Assembly (NCBI GenBank): GCA_029263395.1
Contig: JAJCXO010000004.1
Location: 1 to 64,000 of the forward strand
Direction: 5' to 3'
Length of the DNA: 64,000 bases
Source of the DNA: Acidobacteriota bacterium
Lineage (GTDB): Bacteria > Acidobacteriota > Thermoanaerobaculia > Multivoradales > J023
In this document: positions 10,585-27,101 of the stretch, in pieces
Layout: the number at the start of each line of letters is the position of its first letter
How positions within the stretch are numbered: position 1 is the first letter of the stretch
Made by a program: the position numbers and the translations under genes
The notes under the pieces: model-generated
Told to the model about the DNA's origin: nothing
Database searches by the model: none
What the model saw: the letters and a program-made list of their open reading frames with translations, nothing else

Positions 10585-10624
10585 CGCTCAGCAGCCTGCC
10601 ATCGTCAAACTTGTCGAAATGCGC

Positions 10625-10834
10625 GATTGAGCGTCAATCGTACTCTCCTGACCGTTCCGAAACCACGATCGAACGTTGATCGCGGTGTCCTGACGTTCAG
10701 GATCGTAGGATTGAGCGTCGATCACGGTGTCTGGACGCTCAGGACCGTGTGATTGAGCGTTGATCGCGGTGTCCTGACGCTCAGGATCGTACGATTGAGC
10801 GTCAATTGCACGTTCTGAAGGCTCAGGAAACCCT
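10625..10834. repeat. Five 42-bp tandem repeats, each with an internal palindrome
   Basis: Units start at 10625, 10667, 10709, 10751 and 10793, always exactly 42 bp apart, each beginning GATTGAGCGT (GATCGAACGT in unit 2). Within a unit, TGAGCGTC and GACGCTCA form an inverted repeat (perfect in unit 3), so single strands would fold into a row of hairpins. Outer units are more diverged. The array fills the gap between the YdeI-like start and the XdhC stop. It has no spacers like CRISPR and no coding frame. Confidence 0.85.
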
Positions 10835-10873
10835 AGTTCACCCTCAGACGACCGATTTGTCGATTTTCCGGGG

Positions 10874-11905
10874 CTAAATCGAGGCACGTTGCACGAAGTC
10901 CTGTGGCGCCGAGGCGAACTTGGTTTGGCAACCAGCACAGCAGAACGTGTAGGTCGTGCCATCGTGTTCGTGGGTGTAGGCCGCGCCGTCCGTCTTGACG
11001 GTCATGCCGCAGATTGGGTCGATCGCCGTCGCCTCGCTGGCATCGCCACCAGCGCCACCACAGCAGCTCGACTCGCTCGCTGTTTCCGTCGCCTCGTCAT
11101 TGGCCTCGACCGGCCAGTCGACCCGTTCGGCGTTGCGGCGGTGTTGGATGATCTCGGCCATGATCGAGAGCGCGATCTCGTCGCCGCGGCGGGCTTGGAT
11201 GTCGAGACCAGCCGGAACCACAAGACGGGCCAGATCGCGGTCACCAAAGCCGTGCTGACGCAGGTAGTCGACGATCGGTTCCGAGCGTTTTCGACTCGAG
11301 ACCAGCCCGACGTAGGGTGCTGACGTCCGCAACGCATGTTCCAACGCAAGCTCGTCGTAGTGGCCATGGGTGGCGACAACCACATAGGTTAGCGGATTGA
11401 CCACTTCGGCGATGTTTGCAAGATCGGTCAGAACCCTGTCGGCATGGGCCATGGCGGCACCGTCGGTTTCGGTGTCGACCGCAATCACCTGATAACTCAT
11501 CGCTTTGCCGAGGTGAGCGAGGGATTGGGCGGTAGGGAGGTGGCCAACCACCAGCAGCCGCGGGCGCGGCTGTTGGGGCTCGATGTAGACGTCGAGGGTG
11601 CCACCGCTGAAACAGGTCATCTCCACCTCCTTGACACCCTGGGGTGGCACTTCGCGTCCAGGATTCGGCGTGATCCTTACCAGTCGTGCCGCATCCTCCG
11701 CAATTGCTGCCTGCGCTTCGGTGATCACGGTCGGTTGGGCACAGCTGCCACCGATCCAGCCGAACATGACGCCGTCCAGCGTCACAATCGCCTTATCACC
11801 GGGTTTGCCCGACGTCGGCTTTTCGGAGCGCACCACCACTGCCGTCGCGAAGGGTATCCCTTCTTCGATCAGCTGATGGGCTTTGGCGAAGAATTCGTCG
11901 TACAT
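10874..11905 (-). CDS. XdhC/CoxF-like maturation protein with C-terminal YHS domain
   Basis: A 343-residue protein. The N-terminal XdhC domain shows 'ATAVVVRSEKPTSGKPGDKA', 'GWIGGSCAQPTVI' and 'EMTCFSGGTLDVYIEP'. A Rossmann-like domain follows ('LLVVGHLPTAQSL', 'THGHYDELALEHAL', 'YVGLVSSRKR'). The last 50 residues are a YHS metal-binding domain ('DPICGMTV', 'YTFCCAGCQTKF'). XdhC proteins bind molybdenum cofactor and help load or sulfurate it into xanthine-dehydrogenase-family enzymes. It sits 70 bp downstream of coxL on the same strand, so it very likely serves CO dehydrogenase maturation. The YHS fusion may bind copper needed for the Mo-Cu centre; that is inference. Confidence 0.88.
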   Translation of the reverse strand: MYDEFFAKAHQLIEEGIPFATAVVVRSEKPTSGKPGDKAIVTLDGVMFGWIGGSCAQPTVITEAQAAIAEDAARLVRITPNPGREVPPQGVKEVEMTCFSGGTLDVYIEPQQPRPRLLVVGHLPTAQSLAHLGKAMSYQVIAVDTETDGAAMAHADRVLTDLANIAEVVNPLTYVVVATHGHYDELALEHALRTSAPYVGLVSSRKRSEPIVDYLRQHGFGDRDLARLVVPAGLDIQARRGDEIALSIMAEIIQHRRNAERVDWPVEANDEATETASESSCCGGAGGDASEATAIDPICGMTVKTDGAAYTHEHDGTTYTFCCAGCQTKFASAPQDFVQRASI

Positions 11906-15907: not shown

Positions 15908-17086
15908 TCATCCAGACCGTCTTGACGGCAGCGACCGCAAGTGCTGGCTGAGCTGCTCAAAGCTGTGCAGGGTGTGCACCGGCAAAAAGTCGTCGATGAA
16001 GGGAAGGGCGGCGGCCATGCCCTCTGCGCGCGGCTGATAAGCGGCGTTGCCGAGCAGTGGGTTGAGCCAGATCAAGCGGTGGCAGCGATGATTGAGACTC
16101 CGCATCTCGGCCCGTAGTTGAGAGACGTCGCCACGTTCCCAGCCGTCAGAGACGATCAACACCACCGCGCCACGCCGCAGCACTCGGCGACTCCATTGAC
16201 GATTGAAGGTACGTAACGTCTCGCCGATGCGGGTCCCGCCAGCCCAGTCGACCACCTCATGACTTGCAGCGTCAACGGCACGGTCGACATTACGGATCTT
16301 GAGCTGCGGGGTGATCCGTGCCAGCCGGGTGCCGAAAGTGAAACACTCGACTTCAGGCAGGCTGTGGGAGATGCTGTAGAAGAACAACAACACCAGCCGC
16401 GAGACCTGCTCCATCGAGCCGCTGATGTCGGCGAGGAGCACAATCGGCCGCGGTTTGATCTTGCGCCGTCGCCATGCCGGACGCGGCGGTAGGCAGCCGG
16501 TTTTGGCGAGCTGGCGCAAGGCATGCCGCAAATCGAGAGTTTCGCCACGCGAGGCTGTGATGCGCCGGTGAGTCCGTCGCAGGCTGGCTTGCCAACGCAT
16601 ATCCTGGATCAGCCGTCGGACGCCAGCCAGCTCCTCCGGCTTCATCTCGGAGAACTTCTTGTGTTGCAAGATCTCTTGGGTGCTGAACGTTACCGCCCGA
16701 TCTTTGACCTCGATCTCGGGATCTTGCTGCCGTGCCTTGAACGCCATGTAAGTGGCGATAGTGAACGGCTCACGTTTGGAATCGTGACGTGGTGCCACCG
16801 GCGCCTTCCTGCCCTGGGGTCGTTCACCCTCACGGTTCAAACGCCAAAATTGCAGAAAGATGAGCTCGAATAAGCGGAGTGTCTCGGCCCGAGTCACCAG
16901 CAACGCACGAGCGGTGTGGAAAACCTGTTGGCGCTGGGTGATGTCTATCCAATCCAAGGCCCGAACGAAAGACAGCGTTTGATCGAGTGAGATCGTCAAT
17001 CCCGCCTGACGTAACATGCGGGGCAACAACAAAAGATTGGCCAGCAGAGGCTCCGAAGCGGTGGATCGAGGCGATGTCGAGGTCAC
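15908..17086 (-). CDS. coxE: CoxE-like von Willebrand factor A domain protein
   Basis: The protein is about 392 residues long from GTG 17086. The frame is open to 17179, but the extra N-terminus is atypical and would cover a promoter. An N-terminal helical part ('FVRALDWIDITQRQQVFHTARALL') is followed by a C-terminal VWA domain with the MIDAS motif 'DISGSM' and 'GTRIGETLR', 'SDGWERGD'. CoxE acts with the AAA+ protein CoxD in assembling the CO dehydrogenase active site; no coxD is in the window. It precedes coxM on the same strand. The chosen GTG sits 7 bases after TACAAT, so the transcript may be leaderless. The start remains uncertain. Confidence 0.85.
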   Translation of the reverse strand: MTSTSPRSTASEPLLANLLLLPRMLRQAGLTISLDQTLSFVRALDWIDITQRQQVFHTARALLVTRAETLRLFELIFLQFWRLNREGERPQGRKAPVAPRHDSKREPFTIATYMAFKARQQDPEIEVKDRAVTFSTQEILQHKKFSEMKPEELAGVRRLIQDMRWQASLRRTHRRITASRGETLDLRHALRQLAKTGCLPPRPAWRRRKIKPRPIVLLADISGSMEQVSRLVLLFFYSISHSLPEVECFTFGTRLARITPQLKIRNVDRAVDAASHEVVDWAGGTRIGETLRTFNRQWSRRVLRRGAVVLIVSDGWERGDVSQLRAEMRSLNHRCHRLIWLNPLLGNAAYQPRAEGMAAALPFIDDFLPVHTLHSFEQLSQHLRSLPSRRSG

Positions 17087-17122: not shown

Positions 17123-17147
17123 CGGGCTTAGAAGAAGGAGATCTAGA

Positions 17148-17264
17148 ATGTTATCGAAACAGTTCCAACTGTCGATCACTCACCGCTCGAAGGCTGGTCG
17201 CGTGCCTGATGGCTCGGCCTTCTTGCCCGTGCCGGTGAACTCACCTTCTACTATCCAGCGCTGA
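17148..17264 (+). CDS. Small ORF (38 residues) heading the exporter operon
   Basis: The ATG at 17148 follows AGAAGGAG with a seven-base spacer, one of the strongest ribosome-binding sites in the window. The product begins 'MLSKQFQLSITHRSKAGR' and ends 'VNSPSTIQR'. It has no cysteine and no double-glycine cleavage site. Its TGA is three bases before the GTG of the HlyD gene, which has no Shine-Dalgarno of its own, so the ORF could translationally couple the operon, act as a leader peptide, or be the exported peptide. The 5' part overlaps the open but implausible N-terminal extension of coxE on the other strand. Confidence 0.5.
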   Translation: MLSKQFQLSITHRSKAGRVPDGSAFLPVPVNSPSTIQR

Positions 17265-17267
17265 CCC

Positions 17268-18437
17268 GTGGCCGCTCCCTTCAGTCGCACCCTGCGTTCC
17301 CTGGCCAGCGAGCGTTCAGCGGGCTCCCTGGTGGCGATGGTGATCCTGAGCTTGTTGCTTGGCCTGTGGTTTTTTTGGTTGGTAGCCGCCGAATTGCCGG
17401 TGTATGTCACCAGCGAGCAGGCACGGCTGGAAGTCGATCGTGCGGTCTACACCGTGGCGGCTGACGCAGTTGGGCGACTGGTCGAGGTCCGGGGCGAGGT
17501 TGGCCAGGAGGTGGCGGAGGGTGACGTCCTATTTGCCCTCGACGCCGAGCTCGAACGTCGTCGGCTGGATGAGGAACAAACCAGGGGTAAAGCCGCCCAG
17601 CGCGAGATCGCTAGCCTCCACGTAGCTCTTCGCACCGAATCGCAGGGGTTGGCGGAGTCCAACAGCGCCAAAGCAGCCACCGAAGAAGCACGGTCGCGCT
17701 ACCGTGCAGAGTTGGCGGCGGCAGAGCTTGCGGAGGAAGAAGCGACCCGCAGTGAACAGCTACACCAACAAGGGTTGACCTCGGAAATGGAATTGCGTCG
17801 GGCGCAGGCCGAGGCCAGCGAGCGGCGAGCCCAAGCCCAGGCTATCGAGCAATCGGTTGCCCGACTGGAGAGCGAGCGTCAGCTGGAAGGCCGCGATCGC
17901 CAGGGCAGAGTTGACCAAATCGAACGTGAGATCGCCGAACTGCAAGGTGTTGCCGACACGTCCGCCGCCGCTGCTCGTCGGCTCGAAGAAGAGATCAGTC
18001 GACGCCAGATCCGAGCGCCAGTGACCGGTCGTTTAGGCGAGGTTGCTGAGGTAAGGCCGGGCTCGGTGGTGGCGGCCGGCGATCATCTCGCGACCGTCAT
18101 TCCCGCCTCCGAGTTGCAGGTTGTGGCTGGCTTCCCACCGTCCGATGCCTTGGCACGAGTGCGGGCTGGCCAGACTGCCCAACTGCGCCTCGACGGTTTT
18201 CCCTGGACCGAATTCGGCAGCCTGCCTGCAAGGGTGACTCGGGTCGCCAGAGAGGCTCGTGATGGCAAGCTTCGGGTCGACTGTGCAGTGGCCCTGGAGG
18301 CGGGGTCGACCATCCCGTTGCAGCACGGCATGCCCGGCACCCTGATTGTCGAGGTTGAACGCGTGTCACCGGCAGAGCTGGTGCTGCGGGCGGCGGGTCG
18401 TGCTGTGGGTGCGGTCCGCCCACGGGGCGCTGACTGA
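17268..18437 (+). CDS. HlyD-family membrane fusion protein of a peptide exporter
   Basis: A 389-residue adaptor. One transmembrane helix at about residues 20-42 is followed by a split lipoyl domain ('ADAVGRLVEVRGEVGQEVAEGDVLFALD' and, after the coil, 'IRAPVTGRLGEVAEVRPGSVV'). A long alanine/glutamate-rich coiled coil spans about residues 85-245. A beta-barrel end follows ('VRAGQTAQLRLDGFPW'). Together with the next two genes it forms the three-part arrangement known from NHLM-type bacteriocin export systems. It starts with GTG three bases after the small ORF, and its stop abuts the next start (TGAATG). Confidence 0.88.
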   Translation: MAAPFSRTLRSLASERSAGSLVAMVILSLLLGLWFFWLVAAELPVYVTSEQARLEVDRAVYTVAADAVGRLVEVRGEVGQEVAEGDVLFALDAELERRRLDEEQTRGKAAQREIASLHVALRTESQGLAESNSAKAATEEARSRYRAELAAAELAEEEATRSEQLHQQGLTSEMELRRAQAEASERRAQAQAIEQSVARLESERQLEGRDRQGRVDQIEREIAELQGVADTSAAAARRLEEEISRRQIRAPVTGRLGEVAEVRPGSVVAAGDHLATVIPASELQVVAGFPPSDALARVRAGQTAQLRLDGFPWTEFGSLPARVTRVAREARDGKLRVDCAVALEAGSTIPLQHGMPGTLIVEVERVSPAELVLRAAGRAVGAVRPRGAD

Positions 18438-21197
18438 ATGGGCAAGAGCCGGCAACTCTTGGCCCCCGAGGTTGTGCAGACCTCGTCGATGGATTGTGGC
18501 CCGGCGTCGCTCAAGAGCCTGCTCGGCGGGCATCGCATCGAGGTTGGTTACGACCGGCTGCGGGAAGCCTGCCAAACCGATGTCGACGGTACGTCGATCA
18601 GTACAATGGAAGAGGTGGCGGTGCAACTTGGCCTCGAGGCCGAGCAGATCATGCTGCCGCTGGATCATCTTTTCCTTCCTGAGGCCCACGCTCTGCCAGC
18701 CATTGTTGTGGTCACCAATCCGATTGGTGTGACCCATTTTGTGGTGGTGTGGCGGTGTAATGGCCCGTGGGTTCAGGTTATGGATCCGGCTGTTGGTCGC
18801 CATTGGGTGCGGCGCGACACGTTGCTGCGCGATGTCTACACGCACCGTCAGGCGGTGCCCGCCGCGGGTTGGCGAGAGTGGGCAGGGACTGAGGAAGCGC
18901 ATGAGACTCTGACGGCTCGCATGGCGGCGCTGAAGATCGCACTGAGGCAGCGTTCTCAGTTGGTGGGCGATGCGCTCGCAGATCCGGATTGGCGGCCCCT
19001 CGCCCGTCTCGACGCGGCGGTTCGGATGGTGGCCTCCATCGTCGACGCAGGTGGGGTTTCTAAAGGTGCCACCGCGACCGCCTTGCTGCACGGCATCCTG
19101 GAAGAAGCCGCGGCTGAAGACGCCAGAGCGGCATTGGCTGCTCGAGCCGGCCGCGAAGCCGGAAGCGGAGCCAGCGTCGAAGCCGAGAACAATGTTATTC
19201 CCGACGTCTACTGGGCTGTTCGACCGGTAGAGGACGATCCGGAGATGGGTCAGATGCTCGAGTTACGCGGCGGGGTGATGGTGCGGTCGAAAGGGCTTTC
19301 TGAACCCTCACCATCCGACTTGTCAGAAGCTGGCGGGTCCTCTGGCGGACTTTCCGCCGAGCTTTCGGCCGCCTTGACCGAACCCACCATGCGACCTGGC
19401 CGAGAGCTGTGGAAGACCTTGGCAGCCGACGGTCTGCAAGCGCCCATCGTGTTTGCGGTTGCGTTGGCGATCGCCACCGGTGCCACCATTGTGCAAGTCC
19501 TGTTCTTCCGAGGTCTTCTCGACCTTGGTGCCCGGCTGGTTTTACCCGAGCAGCGTTTGGTTGCGGCTTTGGCCCTGACCTTGTTCCTGGTACTCGGTGT
19601 GCTGCTGGAGATTCCAACCGCAGCCACCGTGTTGCGGTTTGGCCGTCGCCTCGAGGCACGTCTTCGGCGTCGTTTTTTGACCCAGACGGCCCGCCTCGCC
19701 GACCGCTATTTCCGCAGCCGATTGGCCTCTGACATGGCGGAGCGCAGCCACAACACCCACATGCTGCATGAAGTCCCGGAGCTTGGCGCCGCCACCCTGC
19801 GCCTGGTGTTCCAAGCTTTGATGACCACCGCCGGCATCATCTGGCTCGATCCGGGGATTGCGCCGGTGGCCCTGTTGGCACTAGCGGTGGCCTTGGCGGT
19901 GCCATTTGTCACCCAACCGCTACTTGCCGAGACCGACTTGCGGGTGCGCAATCATGCCGGTGCGCTGAGCCGATTTTACCTCGACGCGCTGTTGGGTTTG
20001 GTGCCGGCGCGCAACCATGGTGCCGAGCGACCGATGCGCCGTGAGCACGAAGGGCTCCTATTGGATTGGCAGCAGTCACTGCTGCGCAGCGAACGCGCCA
20101 AGTTGTGGATGAGCGCAACCCAAGCGTTGGCCGGGTATGGACTGGCGATTTGGCTGGTGTTCCGTCATCTGGCGAATAATGAAGGTGTAGGGCAGATCCT
20201 GCTGTTGGCCTATTGGGCGCTTTACCTGCAGACTATCGGTGAGAACCTCGGGGTTGTCGGCCGTCAGGTACCGCACGTTCGGAATGTGACGCGGCGGTTG
20301 CTGGAGCCCTTGGGGCTGGAGGTCACGGCTGAACCGGAAACGACCGATGCGCCGACGCACGACCCATCGGCGGCCGATGGTGGAGTGGCGATCGGGTTCC
20401 ACGGTACCCGAGTGGTGGCAGGCGGTCATACGATCCTCGACGGTATCAACCTCGAGATTGGCGCCGGCAGCCATGTTGCGGTGGTTGGAGCCTCCGGTGC
20501 AGGCAAGTCGTCCCTCGTGGGCCTGTTGCTGGGCTGGCACGAAGCGGCTGCCGGTCGAGTCACAGTCGACGGCCGTGAACTCGGTGCCGCTCAACTCAGT
20601 AAGCTTCGACACCAAATCGCCTGGGTCGATCCGGCGGTCCAATTATGGAATCGGCCGTTGATGGCTAATCTGCGTTATGGCTCCAGAGGCCGAGCTGACG
20701 AGTTGATTGCGGGTGCAATCGAGGTCGCACAGCTGCGTGGGTTGCTCGAGCGGCTGCCGGAAGGGTTGCAGACCTGGCTCGGCGAAGGCGGCGCGCTGGT
20801 CTCCGGCGGCGAAGGCCAGCGGGTCCGGTTAGCCCGGGCTCTGCTGCGTCAAGATGCCAGGCTAGTCATCCTCGACGAGCCGTTTCGAGGCCTCGATCGG
20901 ACCCAGCGTCAGGTGCTGACCCGTCAAGCTCGGGAATGGTGGCGAGACAGTACCGTGCTCTACATCTCCCACGATCTCGCCGAGACCCGGGATTTTGACC
21001 GGGTGTTGGTCTTGGAGTCCGGGCGAGTTACCGAGGACGGTCGGCCGGATCAGCTGGAGTCGGTGCCGGAGTCGCGGTATGGCACGCTGTTGGCTGCGGA
21101 GGCTGACTTGCGCCGAGAGTTGGCCGACGGTACCGGCTGGCGGCGTTGGCAAGTTGCAGGCGGAGCACTGGCTGAGCAGGTTCCAAACGATGCTTGA
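18438..21197 (+). CDS. Peptidase C39-containing ABC transporter (PCAT)
   Basis: A 919-residue fusion. The N-terminal C39 peptidase has Q14, catalytic C20 ('SMDCGPASL'), H100 ('THFVVVW') and D116 ('VMDPAVG'), so it should be active. A stretch of about 180 residues rich in Ala, Glu and Ser follows (roughly 150-330), unusual for PCATs. Then come six transmembrane helices and a nucleotide-binding domain with Walker A 'GASGAGKSS', signature 'VSGGEGQRVRLARAL', Walker B 'LVILDEPF' and H-loop 'ISHD'. Such proteins cleave a leader, usually after Gly-Gly, and export the peptide. Normal length is near 700, so the insert stands out. Its 3' end overlaps the next gene by eight bases. Confidence 0.9.
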   Translation: MGKSRQLLAPEVVQTSSMDCGPASLKSLLGGHRIEVGYDRLREACQTDVDGTSISTMEEVAVQLGLEAEQIMLPLDHLFLPEAHALPAIVVVTNPIGVTHFVVVWRCNGPWVQVMDPAVGRHWVRRDTLLRDVYTHRQAVPAAGWREWAGTEEAHETLTARMAALKIALRQRSQLVGDALADPDWRPLARLDAAVRMVASIVDAGGVSKGATATALLHGILEEAAAEDARAALAARAGREAGSGASVEAENNVIPDVYWAVRPVEDDPEMGQMLELRGGVMVRSKGLSEPSPSDLSEAGGSSGGLSAELSAALTEPTMRPGRELWKTLAADGLQAPIVFAVALAIATGATIVQVLFFRGLLDLGARLVLPEQRLVAALALTLFLVLGVLLEIPTAATVLRFGRRLEARLRRRFLTQTARLADRYFRSRLASDMAERSHNTHMLHEVPELGAATLRLVFQALMTTAGIIWLDPGIAPVALLALAVALAVPFVTQPLLAETDLRVRNHAGALSRFYLDALLGLVPARNHGAERPMRREHEGLLLDWQQSLLRSERAKLWMSATQALAGYGLAIWLVFRHLANNEGVGQILLLAYWALYLQTIGENLGVVGRQVPHVRNVTRRLLEPLGLEVTAEPETTDAPTHDPSAADGGVAIGFHGTRVVAGGHTILDGINLEIGAGSHVAVVGASGAGKSSLVGLLLGWHEAAAGRVTVDGRELGAAQLSKLRHQIAWVDPAVQLWNRPLMANLRYGSRGRADELIAGAIEVAQLRGLLERLPEGLQTWLGEGGALVSGGEGQRVRLARALLRQDARLVILDEPFRGLDRTQRQVLTRQAREWWRDSTVLYISHDLAETRDFDRVLVLESGRVTEDGRPDQLESVPESRYGTLLAAEADLRRELADGTGWRRWQVAGGALAEQVPNDA

Positions 21198-23409
21198 GGT
21201 CGGTAGGGGTGAGGGCTGGAACCTGGCTTGGCCGTTGGAGCGGGCCGAAGAAGCACTCGAGCTGTTGGCTCTCGAGAGTGGTTTGGTACGGCGTACGAGT
21301 CCAGCCGCTGACGAGTCTGATACGTCAGCCACTAGTCAGGCAGAAACACAGGATGAGGCTACTTCACTGCCAGATATCGAGCCGCGACTGACTGCCGTCG
21401 TCGACCGTCTTGGGCTGGAGATTGAGGCGGTCGACACGCCGCATGACGAGACCGAAGCGTTAATACAAAACTGTGGCCCAGCCCTGTTGCGGATCGTGGA
21501 CCCTGCAACCGGTTCGGAGAGCCCGCAAAGCGCCAACTATCGTTTGCTGGCGGTGCTTGGACCGCGCCGCCGCGGGGTGTCGATTCTGGCTCCCGATCTG
21601 ACGGTACATCGGGTGTCGGTATCCGACGTCAGGGATTGGTTGTGTCGTGAGATCGAAGCTCCGGTGCTGCCCAAGGTCGAGCGCCTGCTGACCCAACTGC
21701 AAGCCACGGTCAAGGTCACCCCACGGCGAGCGGATCGCGCCCGGCAGGCTTTGCTCAGGGAGCGGTTGCGTCGCGCACGGATCCGTCACTGCTGGTTGCT
21801 GCGTCGACAACCTGGCGCCAGTTTCTGGCAGCAAATGACGGCAGCCGGTACGGTGCGCCATGCGGCCCAGTTTTTGGGCCTCTACGTGATCGCTTATGGG
21901 CTGGTGCTGACGTCCTGGTGGGTCTTGGGCCAGGGCGCGCTCAGTGGTCATTTGTCCCGTGACTGGCTGCTGGCTTGGGCGTTGCTGTTGATTACCTCGG
22001 TGGTACCCCATCAAGGCTCCCTGTGGACCCAGGCGAAAATTGCTGCGAGTGTTGGCACGTTGCTCAAGCGTCGGCTGTTACAAGGCGCCCTGCGGCTCGA
22101 ACCCGACGAGATCCGGCGTCATGGAGCCGGCCAGTTACTCGGTCGGGTGATCGAATCCGAGGCGCTACAAACCCACGCCTTGCAGGGTGGCTTCCTGGCA
22201 ATTCTCGGTGGGCTCGAGGTCGCGATGTCGGGTTGGGTGTTGAGTCAAGGCGCCATGGGTGGGTTGCATCTGTTGCTGCTTGGCGTGTGGCTGTTGGTGG
22301 TCGGTGTGGTGGGTTGGCGTTATCTGGTTCGGCGCCAAGAGTGGACCGACGATCGACTCGCCATGACTCATGATTTGGTCGAGAGCCTGGTGGGTCACCG
22401 TACCCGGCTGGCCCAGGAACGGCGGGAAGATTGGCACCAGCGTGAAGATCGTCTATTGGAGACCTACCTGGGCTCGTCGCGACGGGTGGATTGGCAGCGT
22501 GCGTTGTTGGCGGTTTCGGCGTTTGCTTGGATCTTGATCGGTATCGTGGGGCTGCTACCAGCGTTTGTGTCCGGCAGCGCGTCGACGGCGGCGCTGGCGC
22601 TCAGCATTGGTGGAGTGTTGTTGGGCTTCCGTGCCTTCAGCAAACTCACCCGCGGGTTCTCTTACCTCGCTGGTGCCTGGATCAGTTGGCAGCAAGCGGG
22701 GCCAATTTTTCATGCGGCCGGCAAAGCCGATGCCGAGGGTGTCGGGGGAGTGGCGTTAAGCTTGGCACCGCGTCCAGAAGAAGGTGCTGGACGTGGAGGC
22801 AAAGTCCTCGAGGCGCAGGATTTGGTTTACCGTTACCCAGGGCGAGTTCGGGCAGTGCTCGACGGATGCCAGCTCGAGCTGTTTGCCGGCGACCGGGTGT
22901 TGATCGAAGGACCGTCAGGAGGCGGAAAAAGTACACTTGCCGGCTTGCTCACCCGGCTGCGGAGTCCAGACTCGGGCCTGTTGCTGCTCGGTGGCCTCGA
23001 TCCACACACCATACCTGCCGCAGTGTGGCGTCGGCATGTGGTTGCGGCCCCTCAATTTCACGAGAACCACGTGTTCACCGAGACCTTTGCCTTCAATCTG
23101 CTGATGGGCCGTGGTTGGCCTCCGCGCCGTCAGGACATGGCCGATGCCAGTGCGGTGTGTGAGGAGTTGGGTCTCGGCGAGCTCTTGCAACGGATGCCCG
23201 CCGGTCTGTTGCAAGTGGTAGGGGAGACGGGATGGCAGCTCTCCCACGGTGAGCGTGGGCGCCTGTTCATGGCGCGCGCTTTGTTGCAAGGCGCTGACAT
23301 CGTAATCTTGGACGAGAGCTTTGCGGCGCTAGACCCGGAGAACTTTCAACGCGCCCTGGCTTGTGCTCTGCGCCGAGCGCCAACCCTGTTGATCATCGCC
23401 CACCCCTGA
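21190..23409 (+). CDS. Second ABC transporter of the exporter operon (TIGR03797-like)
   Basis: The protein has 739 residues from ATG 21190 (the frame is open from 20995, but that part duplicates the upstream gene in another frame). About 270 N-terminal residues without clear motif precede the transmembrane domain ('AAQFLGLYVIAYGLVLTSWWVLG'). The ATPase domain has Walker A 'GPSGGGKST', signature 'LSHGERGRLFMARAL' and Walker B 'IVILDESFAALD'. The protein ends exactly at the H-loop ('LLIIAHP'), 30 or more residues shorter than usual ATPase domains. In NHLM-type systems this partner forms a heterodimer with the C39 transporter. Confidence 0.87.
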   Translation: MLEVGRGEGWNLAWPLERAEEALELLALESGLVRRTSPAADESDTSATSQAETQDEATSLPDIEPRLTAVVDRLGLEIEAVDTPHDETEALIQNCGPALLRIVDPATGSESPQSANYRLLAVLGPRRRGVSILAPDLTVHRVSVSDVRDWLCREIEAPVLPKVERLLTQLQATVKVTPRRADRARQALLRERLRRARIRHCWLLRRQPGASFWQQMTAAGTVRHAAQFLGLYVIAYGLVLTSWWVLGQGALSGHLSRDWLLAWALLLITSVVPHQGSLWTQAKIAASVGTLLKRRLLQGALRLEPDEIRRHGAGQLLGRVIESEALQTHALQGGFLAILGGLEVAMSGWVLSQGAMGGLHLLLLGVWLLVVGVVGWRYLVRRQEWTDDRLAMTHDLVESLVGHRTRLAQERREDWHQREDRLLETYLGSSRRVDWQRALLAVSAFAWILIGIVGLLPAFVSGSASTAALALSIGGVLLGFRAFSKLTRGFSYLAGAWISWQQAGPIFHAAGKADAEGVGGVALSLAPRPEEGAGRGGKVLEAQDLVYRYPGRVRAVLDGCQLELFAGDRVLIEGPSGGGKSTLAGLLTRLRSPDSGLLLLGGLDPHTIPAAVWRRHVVAAPQFHENHVFTETFAFNLLMGRGWPPRRQDMADASAVCEELGLGELLQRMPAGLLQVVGETGWQLSHGERGRLFMARALLQGADIVILDESFAALDPENFQRALACALRRAPTLLIIAHP

Positions 23410-23528: not shown

Positions 23529-26500
23529 ATGGCGAAGCAGGGGAAAAGCGACGACGGAACCGCGATCGAACCGAGGGTTGACCGGCAGCCGGGAATGGAA
23601 CGGCGACAGTTCTTACAAGTTGGACTGTTGGGAGGTGCTGCCGCCGCAGCTGGCGTAATACCCACAGTCGCTGAGCCTGTGCCGACTGAACCTGCGCCCG
23701 AGCCTCACACTGACACGACAGCCCAAGCTTCCAAACAAGACGACTGCAAAGGGCGGCGTCCGCAGCCTGCGCCGCTCGAGTGCCAGGTCCCCAACGTCAA
23801 GGGGGCGCTCGAGAATTGGAACGAACCTTGGGTGTGGCGGCCTGGGGACTGGCCGGGCCAGCAGCTGGATCTCAATGTGGTGATCAACCAGAATCCTGGC
23901 ATCGAAGTAGGGCTCGGTAATCCCGGCTCGATCTTCTTCAGCTTCGGTGGCAATACCCCCGGCCCGACGATTCGGATGCGGGGTGACGAGACCCTATCGG
24001 TCAAGCTGCGCAATCTGCTCAGTGAAGACTTTGGTGAGAACTTTGTCGGTCCATTTCCGGATCTCGGCGACCTGCCGTTGGCGAAGGGTTCCAAACCGTC
24101 CAAGGTGGCTCGACCGCCGGTGAACGCTGGCTGTGATGGCCCGGTCAACGTCTGTGATCTGAAGCCGCTGCCGGTTTCGCCCTGTGAGTCCGACGGACCG
24201 TCGAAACCAAGTCCCCAAAAGGAACTCGAGCAGCTCGTGATCGAGAAGGGGAAGCAGCGTGGCCAGCACCGTTTCGATTTCTGTCTCGGTGAGCACACCA
24301 ACGGCCTACATTCGGCCCACGTCACCAACATGCACACCCATGGACTGCATGTGCGACCCGACAAGAATCCTGACGGCACCAACTCCGACAATGTCATTTT
24401 GCGGGTGCTCAGCCAGGGAGATTTCAAGCGCCGCGAGCGGGCGGTGATGGGGGAGCCTGGGGAGCGTTGTATCTGCAACACGCCGAGTTCAAGGCCGGTG
24501 TGTAAACAATGCGGCGGTTCGGTCGTCGAGCCGTCCGAATGTGCCACCGGCGAAGGGCCGGTCGATCCGACCTCGGCCTGTCGCTTCCTGCGTCGTCCTG
24601 AGCAGACCTTCTTCATTCGTGACGATGAGATTGTCGGCGAGGCCGACTACGAGTTCCGCCTCGGCAACGTGATGGGTGATCCCAATCAACCTCACCCGCC
24701 GGGCACATTCTGGTACCACCCCCACGCCCACGGCGCCACCGACATTCAGGTGTCGAGTGGCATGGCTGGTTATTTGATCATCGAGGGCGCCGAGGACGAC
24801 AACATCAACTGTCGGCTGACCGGCATCCCGAATCCCAACCCGTCACTCAAAACCGGCCCGTGGGACTATCGCGAGCGTTTGATGTTCATGCAGCGGGTGT
24901 TCCCAACCAACACCGAGGGAGATCCAGACGCCGCGCCCAAGTCACGACTCAAGAAAGTCCCGACGCCAACCGCCAACGGCAGCGAAAAGGCGGGAGTCAT
25001 CAACATGCGGCGGGGTGCCGTCGAACGGTGGCGGGTCCTCAACGGCAGCGTTGACGGCCGTGGTTACAAACGGTTCATGGTGGTCAAAGGGCACTACGAC
25101 ATCGTCACCACCGGTTTTGCGCCAACCGTTGCCGAAGCGGATGTGCCACGTCCTCAGCAGGCGGTGCCGATCAACATGTTGGTCAAGATCGGCCCCGACA
25201 ATCAGCCGATTCTGAAGCCGGTGACACCTCCCGAACTAGAGGCCGCCAAGTGCCATCTCTTCCAGTTGTCAATCGACGGCATCACCTTGGTGCGGACGGT
25301 GGAGAAGGGCGGCAAGCAGGTGCCGGAGTACTACATCAAGGATCTCGCCAAGCAGATCTATCAATGCCCGGCTCCGGGCCCCGGAGGCCCGTCACCCAAG
25401 ATCCCTGCTGATCTCTTGGGCGGTAAGGTCCAACCCATGTGCCGCAACGCAGAAGGTGAGGAGGTGCCGGTCAACACCCCCAACGCCCGCAAGCTGCGGA
25501 CGGTCGAAAACGTCTTCAAGAACGCCGACACCATTCGCAATGCCTGGGTGCGTCCCAACGAGTTCTACATGGGGCCGGCCAACCGTACCGACGTGTTCTT
25601 CCAGCTGCCACCGGACGCCAAGTGTGGCGACATCTACACCGTGTTGGCCAAGGCGGTCGCGATTCACGCCGACACGCCGGTGTTCAGCTTGCAAGAGTCG
25701 GTCAACTGTCCCAATCCCAGCCCGGGGCCGAGTGACATCATCGTGGCCCACATCGTGGTGGTGAGCGACGACCTGGTTGACGGTGTGAAAGATCGGCCCA
25801 AGAGTGTGCCGATCGATCAGACCTTTGATCATCTGATGATGGACGTCCAAAAGTGTTTGCCGGAGGAGGTATTGCCCTACCTGCATCCGATCACCGACGA
25901 GGAGTTGGCGATCCGAGGGAGTGGGACCGGCAGCGATGGCAAATACCGCACCCGCGTCTCCTACTATTCGGGTTGGGGCAATGAGGGTTTACCCTTGGTC
26001 ACCACCGATCCGGCAGATCCTTCTTGTAAAGCCTTTTCAGAGTTTATCGAAGGCAAGAACCGCAAAACACCCAACGGCCCAGAGCTGCGAGATCTGCGCT
26101 ACATGTGGGTCGACGAAAATGGCAACGCCGTGCCGGCACCGAAGCAGCCATCGAAGTCCGATATCGCCGTGCTGCTATCGCCACGGACCCGCACCATGGG
26201 GATCAACCACGGCACCCAGCCGTCGGCCGACGACAAGGACTACGATCACCATCTGCGCGGTCGTAAGTTCAATCCGGGCGACTCCGAACGCCCCTTTGTG
26301 CTGGTCAACACCTGTGAGGAATGGGCGGTTTACAACACCTCGCAGACGTTGTGGGGTTATACCGACACCTCGGAGGCGGGCGAAGCCAAACATCCGCAGC
26401 CCGGGCAGTTCCGGGGCCACTACGTGTCTTATCCGATCACGCGACGGGAAGGGCAAGACGAGTTCTGGCGGTGCGAGAACCTCGACACCGAAAGCGGTAT

Positions 26501-27101
26501 TCCCGACTTTCGGGTGGTGTCACGGGCCATCGATCATCCCTTCCACATCCACCAGAATCCGTTCTGGGTGTTGCGGATCGAAATCCCGGACGAAAATGGC
26601 AAATTGGTCAATATTCTGCCCGAGCCGCGCTGGATGGATACGTCGTGGATTCCGCGTAATAACGGCCGTATCGTCTTTCGTTCACGGTTCCCGGACTACG
26701 TCGGCATTGCGGTCCATCATTGCCATATCTTGCAGCACGAGGACAACGGCATGATGACGGCGATGCAGCTGACACCGTTTCCCGAACTCGCCAACCCAGA
26801 GCAGCGACAACACGTTGCCGACGGGACGCAGCCTTGTGAACAAAGTCCAGAGGACGTCGACAAGATCTACCCGCGTCCGACGTTGGAGGAGTCTTACATC
26901 CGGAACTTCACCTTCCTCGACTCCAATATTCCAGCGGCCAAGGATCCGAGTTTGCCGCCGGTTTACATCGCGCCCAAGCCGGGTGCGCCGACGCGGGTGC
27001 CGAATACGGGGCAGAACTACCCCGGCTTCAAGGTTGAGCCACCGTCCTGGCCGCCAGCCAAGAGAAAGTCCGGCGAGAAGAAGTCAGGCAAGAAGAAGTA
27101 G
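23529..27101 (+). CDS. Very large Tat-exported multicopper oxidase
   Basis: The protein has 1190 residues from the ATG at 23529, which follows GAGGAGGA; an upstream in-frame start is not needed. A twin-arginine signal 'ERRQFLQVGLLGGAAAAAG' is near residue 20. All four copper-site motifs are present but far apart: 'NMHTHGLHV' near 268, 'WYHPHAHG' near 396, 'HPFHIHQNPFW' near 1004 and 'HHCHILQHEDNGMM' near 1065, which contains the type 1 His-Cys-His-Met pattern. Ordinary laccases have about 500 residues; the 600-residue middle contains extra domains, and the N-terminal part is Cys-rich. The C-terminus is Lys-rich. Substrate is unknown; phenolics, metals such as Mn or Cu, or a secreted polymer are possible. 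Confidence 0.9.
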   Translation: MAKQGKSDDGTAIEPRVDRQPGMERRQFLQVGLLGGAAAAAGVIPTVAEPVPTEPAPEPHTDTTAQASKQDDCKGRRPQPAPLECQVPNVKGALENWNEPWVWRPGDWPGQQLDLNVVINQNPGIEVGLGNPGSIFFSFGGNTPGPTIRMRGDETLSVKLRNLLSEDFGENFVGPFPDLGDLPLAKGSKPSKVARPPVNAGCDGPVNVCDLKPLPVSPCESDGPSKPSPQKELEQLVIEKGKQRGQHRFDFCLGEHTNGLHSAHVTNMHTHGLHVRPDKNPDGTNSDNVILRVLSQGDFKRRERAVMGEPGERCICNTPSSRPVCKQCGGSVVEPSECATGEGPVDPTSACRFLRRPEQTFFIRDDEIVGEADYEFRLGNVMGDPNQPHPPGTFWYHPHAHGATDIQVSSGMAGYLIIEGAEDDNINCRLTGIPNPNPSLKTGPWDYRERLMFMQRVFPTNTEGDPDAAPKSRLKKVPTPTANGSEKAGVINMRRGAVERWRVLNGSVDGRGYKRFMVVKGHYDIVTTGFAPTVAEADVPRPQQAVPINMLVKIGPDNQPILKPVTPPELEAAKCHLFQLSIDGITLVRTVEKGGKQVPEYYIKDLAKQIYQCPAPGPGGPSPKIPADLLGGKVQPMCRNAEGEEVPVNTPNARKLRTVENVFKNADTIRNAWVRPNEFYMGPANRTDVFFQLPPDAKCGDIYTVLAKAVAIHADTPVFSLQESVNCPNPSPGPSDIIVAHIVVVSDDLVDGVKDRPKSVPIDQTFDHLMMDVQKCLPEEVLPYLHPITDEELAIRGSGTGSDGKYRTRVSYYSGWGNEGLPLVTTDPADPSCKAFSEFIEGKNRKTPNGPELRDLRYMWVDENGNAVPAPKQPSKSDIAVLLSPRTRTMGINHGTQPSADDKDYDHHLRGRKFNPGDSERPFVLVNTCEEWAVYNTSQTLWGYTDTSEAGEAKHPQPGQFRGHYVSYPITRREGQDEFWRCENLDTESGIPDFRVVSRAIDHPFHIHQNPFWVLRIEIPDENGKLVNILPEPRWMDTSWIPRNNGRIVFRSRFPDYVGIAVHHCHILQHEDNGMMTAMQLTPFPELANPEQRQHVADGTQPCEQSPEDVDKIYPRPTLEESYIRNFTFLDSNIPAAKDPSLPPVYIAPKPGAPTRVPNTGQNYPGFKVEPPSWPPAKRKSGEKKSGKKK

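Follow-up and report, generated by a model that had tools for sequence, protein, structure and literature searches.

The 38-codon open reading frame (ORF) that heads a C39 exporter operon in this Acidobacteriota genome raises two questions, namely what role the ORF plays and, if it does not encode the exported peptide, what the exporter carries. The first-pass annotation of the window (the whole 64,000-nucleotide stretch of DNA that was analyzed) had offered three roles for the ORF: an exported peptide, a regulatory leader peptide or a coupling device. The joint explanation that best accommodates the results, and which is tentatively put forward here, is that the ORF acts as a ribosome-loading leader, while the cargo of the exporter consists of small peptides with a K-A-G motif (KAG peptides) encoded at dispersed sites in the genome.

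Table 1. Features of the exporter operon and its upstream region, in window coordinates.
Feature	Coordinates	Strand	Basis and remarks
Divergent CoxE-like VWA protein, predicted start	15908..17086	-	Pfam VWA_CoxE 8e-60; delimits the upstream region of the operon
Shine-Dalgarno (SD) site AGAAGGAG of the 38-codon ORF	17133..17140	+	Sequence; anti-SD duplex energy
38-codon ORF, putative leader	17148..17264	+	Stops 3 bases 5' of HlyD; sequence, codon score, KAG-profile score
Possible -10-like hexamer TACTAT within the 38-codon ORF	17249..17254	+	Sequence; 13 bases 5' of the HlyD start
HlyD-type membrane fusion protein, GTG start without SD	17268..18437	+	Pfam HlyD_3 2e-14; homologs
ABC exporter 1 (ABC1), N-terminal C39 peptidase (about 18471-18824)	18438..21197	+	Pfam Peptidase_C39 2e-21, ABC_tran 8e-22; alignment
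ABC exporter 2 (ABC2), without peptidase match	21190..23409	+	Pfam ABC_tran 1e-18; start assigned from sequence

The description of the ORF as having a strong ribosome-binding site and ending three bases before the HlyD gene was confirmed. The SD AGAAGGAG stands at a 7 nt spacing from the ATG at 17148, and the encoded peptide, MLSKQFQLSITHRSKAGRVPDGSAFLPVPVNSPSTIQR, ends at a TGA codon (17262-17264) that is followed by CCC and then by the HlyD GTG at 17268. This GTG start is backed by an N-terminus common to most homologs (V/M-x-x-[FP]-F-S-R-T-L-R). The strongest SD of the operon belongs to the 38-codon ORF, with an anti-SD duplex energy of -9.9 kcal/mol compared to -0.7 for HlyD, -6.7 for ABC1 and about -6.4 for ABC2 (the last computed one base off its start); the mean for random 20-mers is -5.1 kcal/mol. 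The ABC1 start directly abuts the HlyD stop, and the ABC2 ATG overlaps the ABC1 stop. Downstream of the exporter in both same-genus genomes lies a gene for a multicopper oxidase with a TAT-like signal (1190 residues, 23529-27101 in the window; 87% identity between the two genomes over the stretch available).

From this layout, translational coupling of the exporter operon by the 38-codon ORF may be proposed. The ORF would form a translated 5' leader of the exporter mRNA, its strong SD capturing ribosomes that would terminate 3 bases upstream of the HlyD GTG, which has no SD, and would start again at this codon; coupling would then continue from HlyD to ABC1 and ABC2 via their abutting or overlapping stop and start codons. 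The sequence of the peptide itself is probably under no selection, and the peptide is probably not cargo. The layout is similar to that of translationally coupled leader ORFs of bacterial operons, where an SD-bearing short ORF also ends just before an SD-less start, although the case described here is known from sequence and its arrangement is conserved in one genus only. A leader role is supported by the presence, both in the window and in a same-genus relative (locus L043), of an SD-bearing ORF that ends 3 or 9 bases, respectively, before HlyD. As a counterpoint, SD-less starts are common in the window, being seen for several genes, and the missing SD may mean no more than that HlyD is leaderless; the TACTAT hexamer lies a short distance upstream of it.

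The main rival to the leader reading, considered somewhat unlikely, builds on this counterpoint: the combination of SD and ORF would be accidental, with HlyD starting independently, for instance from a near-leaderless transcript with TACTAT as the -10 element. Hexamers resembling a -10 element at about the same distance from HlyD in L044 and L053 agree with a chance origin, as do the window genes without an SD; however, a consensus promoter scan found no plus-strand promoter at the TACTAT site, and the same-genus relative has no TACTAT-like hexamer. The probability of an accidental layout was estimated with dinucleotide-preserving shuffles of the upstream region, counting strong-SD ORFs of at least 20 codons that end between -20 and +10 of the HlyD start. 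The chance frequency of such an ORF was 0.3% under the strict SD definition and 1.8% under the relaxed one for the window, and 0.2% and 1.4%, respectively, for the same-genus relative; the relaxed-SD figures are the fair ones because the strict SD list was drawn up after both ORFs were known. Since the window ORF was chosen among about 60 genes, the window alone is weak evidence, whereas the relative provides an independent test, and the recurrence of the layout in this sister species argues against chance.

The same-genus comparison comprises one genome, in which HlyD is 87% and ABC1 78% identical to the window proteins. Its small ORF, MFDCSRFVRSYGRTDSSLVTTLLPSPANPT, has 30 codons and the SD TAGGAG and stops 9 bases before HlyD; the anti-SD energy of the region upstream of HlyD is average there (-5.8 kcal/mol). 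The small ORFs of the window and L043 were alignable neither as peptides (P = 0.083) nor as DNA (P = 0.17), and it appears that the SD-ORF arrangement has been kept within the genus while the peptide sequence has not. The first-pass annotation had suggested examining the same position in homologous operons and had named the lack of an ORF there as refuting its proposal. The SD-bearing ORF is present in the same-genus locus and is largely missing outside the genus: none of 13 other homologous operons in which the HlyD start could be read has a comparable strong-SD ORF, and the small ORFs 5' of HlyD in L051 and L053 have a weak SD. This absence of conservation beyond the genus favors chance, as does the codon score of the 38-codon ORF (0.02 bits/codon, with a gene mean of 0.25 and a value of -0.25 for the L043 ORF), which falls at the 7th percentile of real gene pieces and is reached by 34% of antisense ORFs, placing it in the range of spurious ORFs. 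The codon usage of the 38-codon ORF does not look coding-like, and taken by itself the ORF is an ordinary one.

The position of the ORF, first in the operon and behind a strong SD, would also suit a regulatory leader peptide, acting as an attenuator or ribosome-stalling sensor that controls the exporter. This role is nevertheless very improbable: the RNA fold is ordinary (z = -0.47), on which ground an RNA attenuator was rejected, the sole terminator-like match, a weak one with 0.3 expected in shuffles, falls within the HlyD gene at 17346-17362, and no peptide sequence is conserved between the same-genus ORFs.

The search for the cargo led beyond the window. Tiny ORFs that have an SD and share a motif (e.g., MTVKTQLKAGQSTTGILE, MKITTSLKAGQSLSVIVE and MKVKTNVKAGLAPTCGCGATGRKGHKTSYQGRHTG) lie 5' of HlyD in related operons. 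These belong to what is termed here the KAG family: peptides of 15-60 residues, preceded by SD sites, in which the segment [VI]-x-T-x-[VLIM]-K-A-G, with the core V-x-T-x-V-K-A-G, is followed by a variable tail. An exception in length is a four-repeat member of 93 residues in L050. The exporter is adjoined by KAG genes in L045, L048, L050, L054, L056, L149 and L151, where they lie 5' of HlyD, and also in L055 and L057. The genome of the window has at least five KAG ORFs, all outside the window (MQVKTQVKAGFDLEDY, MKVKTQLKAGPLVHTGSDGGNQG, MKIQTRLKAGAVDGVVITDM, ...RVNTGMKAGFILNP and ...RVKTGMKAGFILSK). One KAG gene that this genome shares with the sister species has changed little between its SD and its stop codon (three synonymous changes and one other) despite diverged flanks, which indicates that at least this one is a real gene.

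ORFs of 15-25 codons are usually missed by gene finders, and the KAG family was previously unmodelled: Pfam and NCBIfam gave no convincing match for the KAG and other small peptides tested, and nothing relevant to the KAG motif was found in the literature searched. Plasmid records also gave no convincing match to KAG peptides. Unannotated peptides of the KAGG...NHNE type may occur in other bacteria, which is a lead rather than evidence. Modification enzymes were considered as neighbors of the KAG genes and none was recurrent; kinases and duplicated permeases do recur, probably as background. Among further KAG-type peptides, those of L070 and L071 (contigs C195 and C228 of the genome of the window; ...TGMKAGFIL..) lie just 5' of homologous genes, with the L071 peptide matching DUF6895, and L110 (G006 contig C15) has a tandem array of three KAG genes, whose products have CPxCP in their tails and are Gly-rich at their ends.

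The distribution of the KAG peptides follows that of the exporter. Two sets, one of 99 relatives and one of 396 genomes from the phylum, were scanned with the DNA pattern M-x-[VI]-x-T-x-[VLIM]-K-A-G and searched for the exporter, and every pattern match was read. The first sample takes in the 72 available genomes of the order, and the co-occurrence set comprises 450 distinct genomes, of which 21 have the exporter and 429 do not. Small free-standing SD-bearing KAG ORFs were present in 15 of the 21 genomes with the exporter and in none of the 429 without it (Fisher 1.4e-23, a statistic that ignores shared ancestry). Pattern matches in exporter-free genomes were rejected as pieces of other genes (e.g., M16 peptidases) or as lacking an SD. 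Within genera g4 and g16, KAG peptides occur only in the species owning the exporter. Genomes of the order, and none outside it, served to define the motif; in the phylum sample outside the order and beyond the first set, only four genomes have the exporter, two of which have the motif by the pattern, and a third encodes two tandem 42-residue KAG versions directly 5' of HlyD. No KAG peptide was found by any scan in five exporter-bearing genomes (G010, G029, G031, G040 and G242); KAG peptides therefore cannot be the sole cargo, and other cargo classes probably exist. Other small ORFs were seen 5' of HlyD in L044, L045 and L048. By eye, L045 and L048 have a second class of small ORF (IWL.EYEGL ... 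FFE) ahead of the KAG gene and a hairpin with a T-rich tail between the KAG gene and HlyD.

The 38-codon ORF could itself be a fast-evolving exported peptide, possibly a degenerate KAG precursor read as LSITHRSKAG|RVPDGSAFLPVPVNSPSTIQR, given that KAG precursors lie 5' of HlyD in the related loci named above and that the ORF has K-A-G at residues 15-17. This possibility is improbable. The ORF scores 1.1 bits on the KAG profile compared to 22-36 bits for 31 members, and its score is equalled by 7% of its shuffled versions and by 3.4% of random ORFs; its Thr and hydrophobic residue are out of register with the motif, so on present evidence the ORF is not a KAG member. In addition, the sister-species ORF has neither K-A-G nor an alignable leader, and the codon usage is weak. 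The ORF also lacks a Gly-Gly leader, as had been noted: no GG, GA or GS site with hydrophobic residues at -4 and -7 was found in it, and relative to its K-A-G these positions are Ser and Thr. Of the three roles first offered, the coupling device is the best remaining reading, and the other two are disfavored, the exported peptide by a sequence that is not conserved in the genus, is not coding-like and fails the KAG profile, and the regulatory leader by the lack of any unusual RNA structure.

The exporter itself, together with the KAG system, belongs to the C39 peptide exporters, and the genome of the window has one exporter of the HlyD/C39-ABC/ABC type. The catalytic residues of the C39 domain (Gln14, Cys20, His100 and Asp116) are conserved in the alignment of ABC1, where they are joined to an ABC ATPase, as in the peptidase-containing ABC transporters (PCATs) that act on double-glycine leaders. 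The KAG peptides are also PCAT-like in being small, SD-bearing and hydrophobic at -4 from the presumed cut. They differ in a leader of about 10 residues that has K-A-G rather than Gly-Gly and leaves no room for the usual Leu at -12; the substrate genes are scattered over the genome, and the exporter has a second ABC subunit. The earlier designation of the exporter as NHLM-type held for gene order and not for the proteins. The NHLM/NHLP bacteriocin export system (TIGR03794, TIGR03796, TIGR03797) has the same order of HlyD, C39-ABC and second ABC and is the best named match of the C39-ABC in the window, but the ABC protein scores 202 bits and HlyD 52, far under the respective NCBIfam equivalog cut-offs of 853 and 156 bits. 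No NHLP or Nif11 leader peptide was found nearby in the small-ORF lists of the window and loci, and KAG peptides would take the place of the nitrile-hydratase or Nif11 leader. The exporter resembles the NHLM system in gene order only.

Combined, the genomic comparisons point to the dispersed KAG peptides as the most likely cargo of the C39 exporter. The [VI]xTx[VLIM]KAG segment would be the leader that is recognized, taking over the role of a Gly-Gly leader, and cleavage would probably occur after KAG or KAGG. The alternative raised at the outset for the missing Gly-Gly leader, that the substrate is elsewhere or that the peptidase specificity differs, is well supported by KAG peptides that are encoded elsewhere and track the exporter. 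It is rather likely that these peptides form an exported class not described before, in which dispersed ORFs of 15-60 residues bear the KAG segment as a short non-Gly-Gly leader and are secreted by a dedicated HlyD/C39-ABC/ABC exporter in several Acidobacteriota families, yielding very short signalling or antagonistic peptides. To our knowledge, peptide secretion and signalling have been little studied in this phylum. In place of a guess on one small ORF there is now a substrate assignment that can be tested for an entire exporter family; if true, it would give C39 peptidases a leader that is both short and simple and would supply a set of candidates for secreted peptides.

Some KAG/exporter loci adjoin genes for XRE/TPR regulators. 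In L047 and L055, the exporter is flanked by genes for an XRE-type regulator, a TPR protein (about 300 aa) and a secreted protein (about 345-480 aa) that has no Pfam match, and TPR and secreted genes lie beside the KAG peptide of L120; this module is reminiscent of peptide-sensing regulators. A 33% identical exporter on a Piscinibacter gummiphilus plasmid (L169, NZ_CP136338.1) is accompanied by DUF692/MNIO, carbamoyltransferase and TfuA-like genes and by a 57-residue peptide ending ...KAKVNVKLGPIPFIAGLSNKARQKPW, and the locus looks like a modified-peptide cluster. Lastly, short tandem-repeat-like intergenic sequence was seen at 10600-10950 in the window, at about 9500-9870 in L070 and at about 6600-7150 in L055, and these stretches translate as repeats of SVDRGVLTLRI or HPDFLDAHPGFL.
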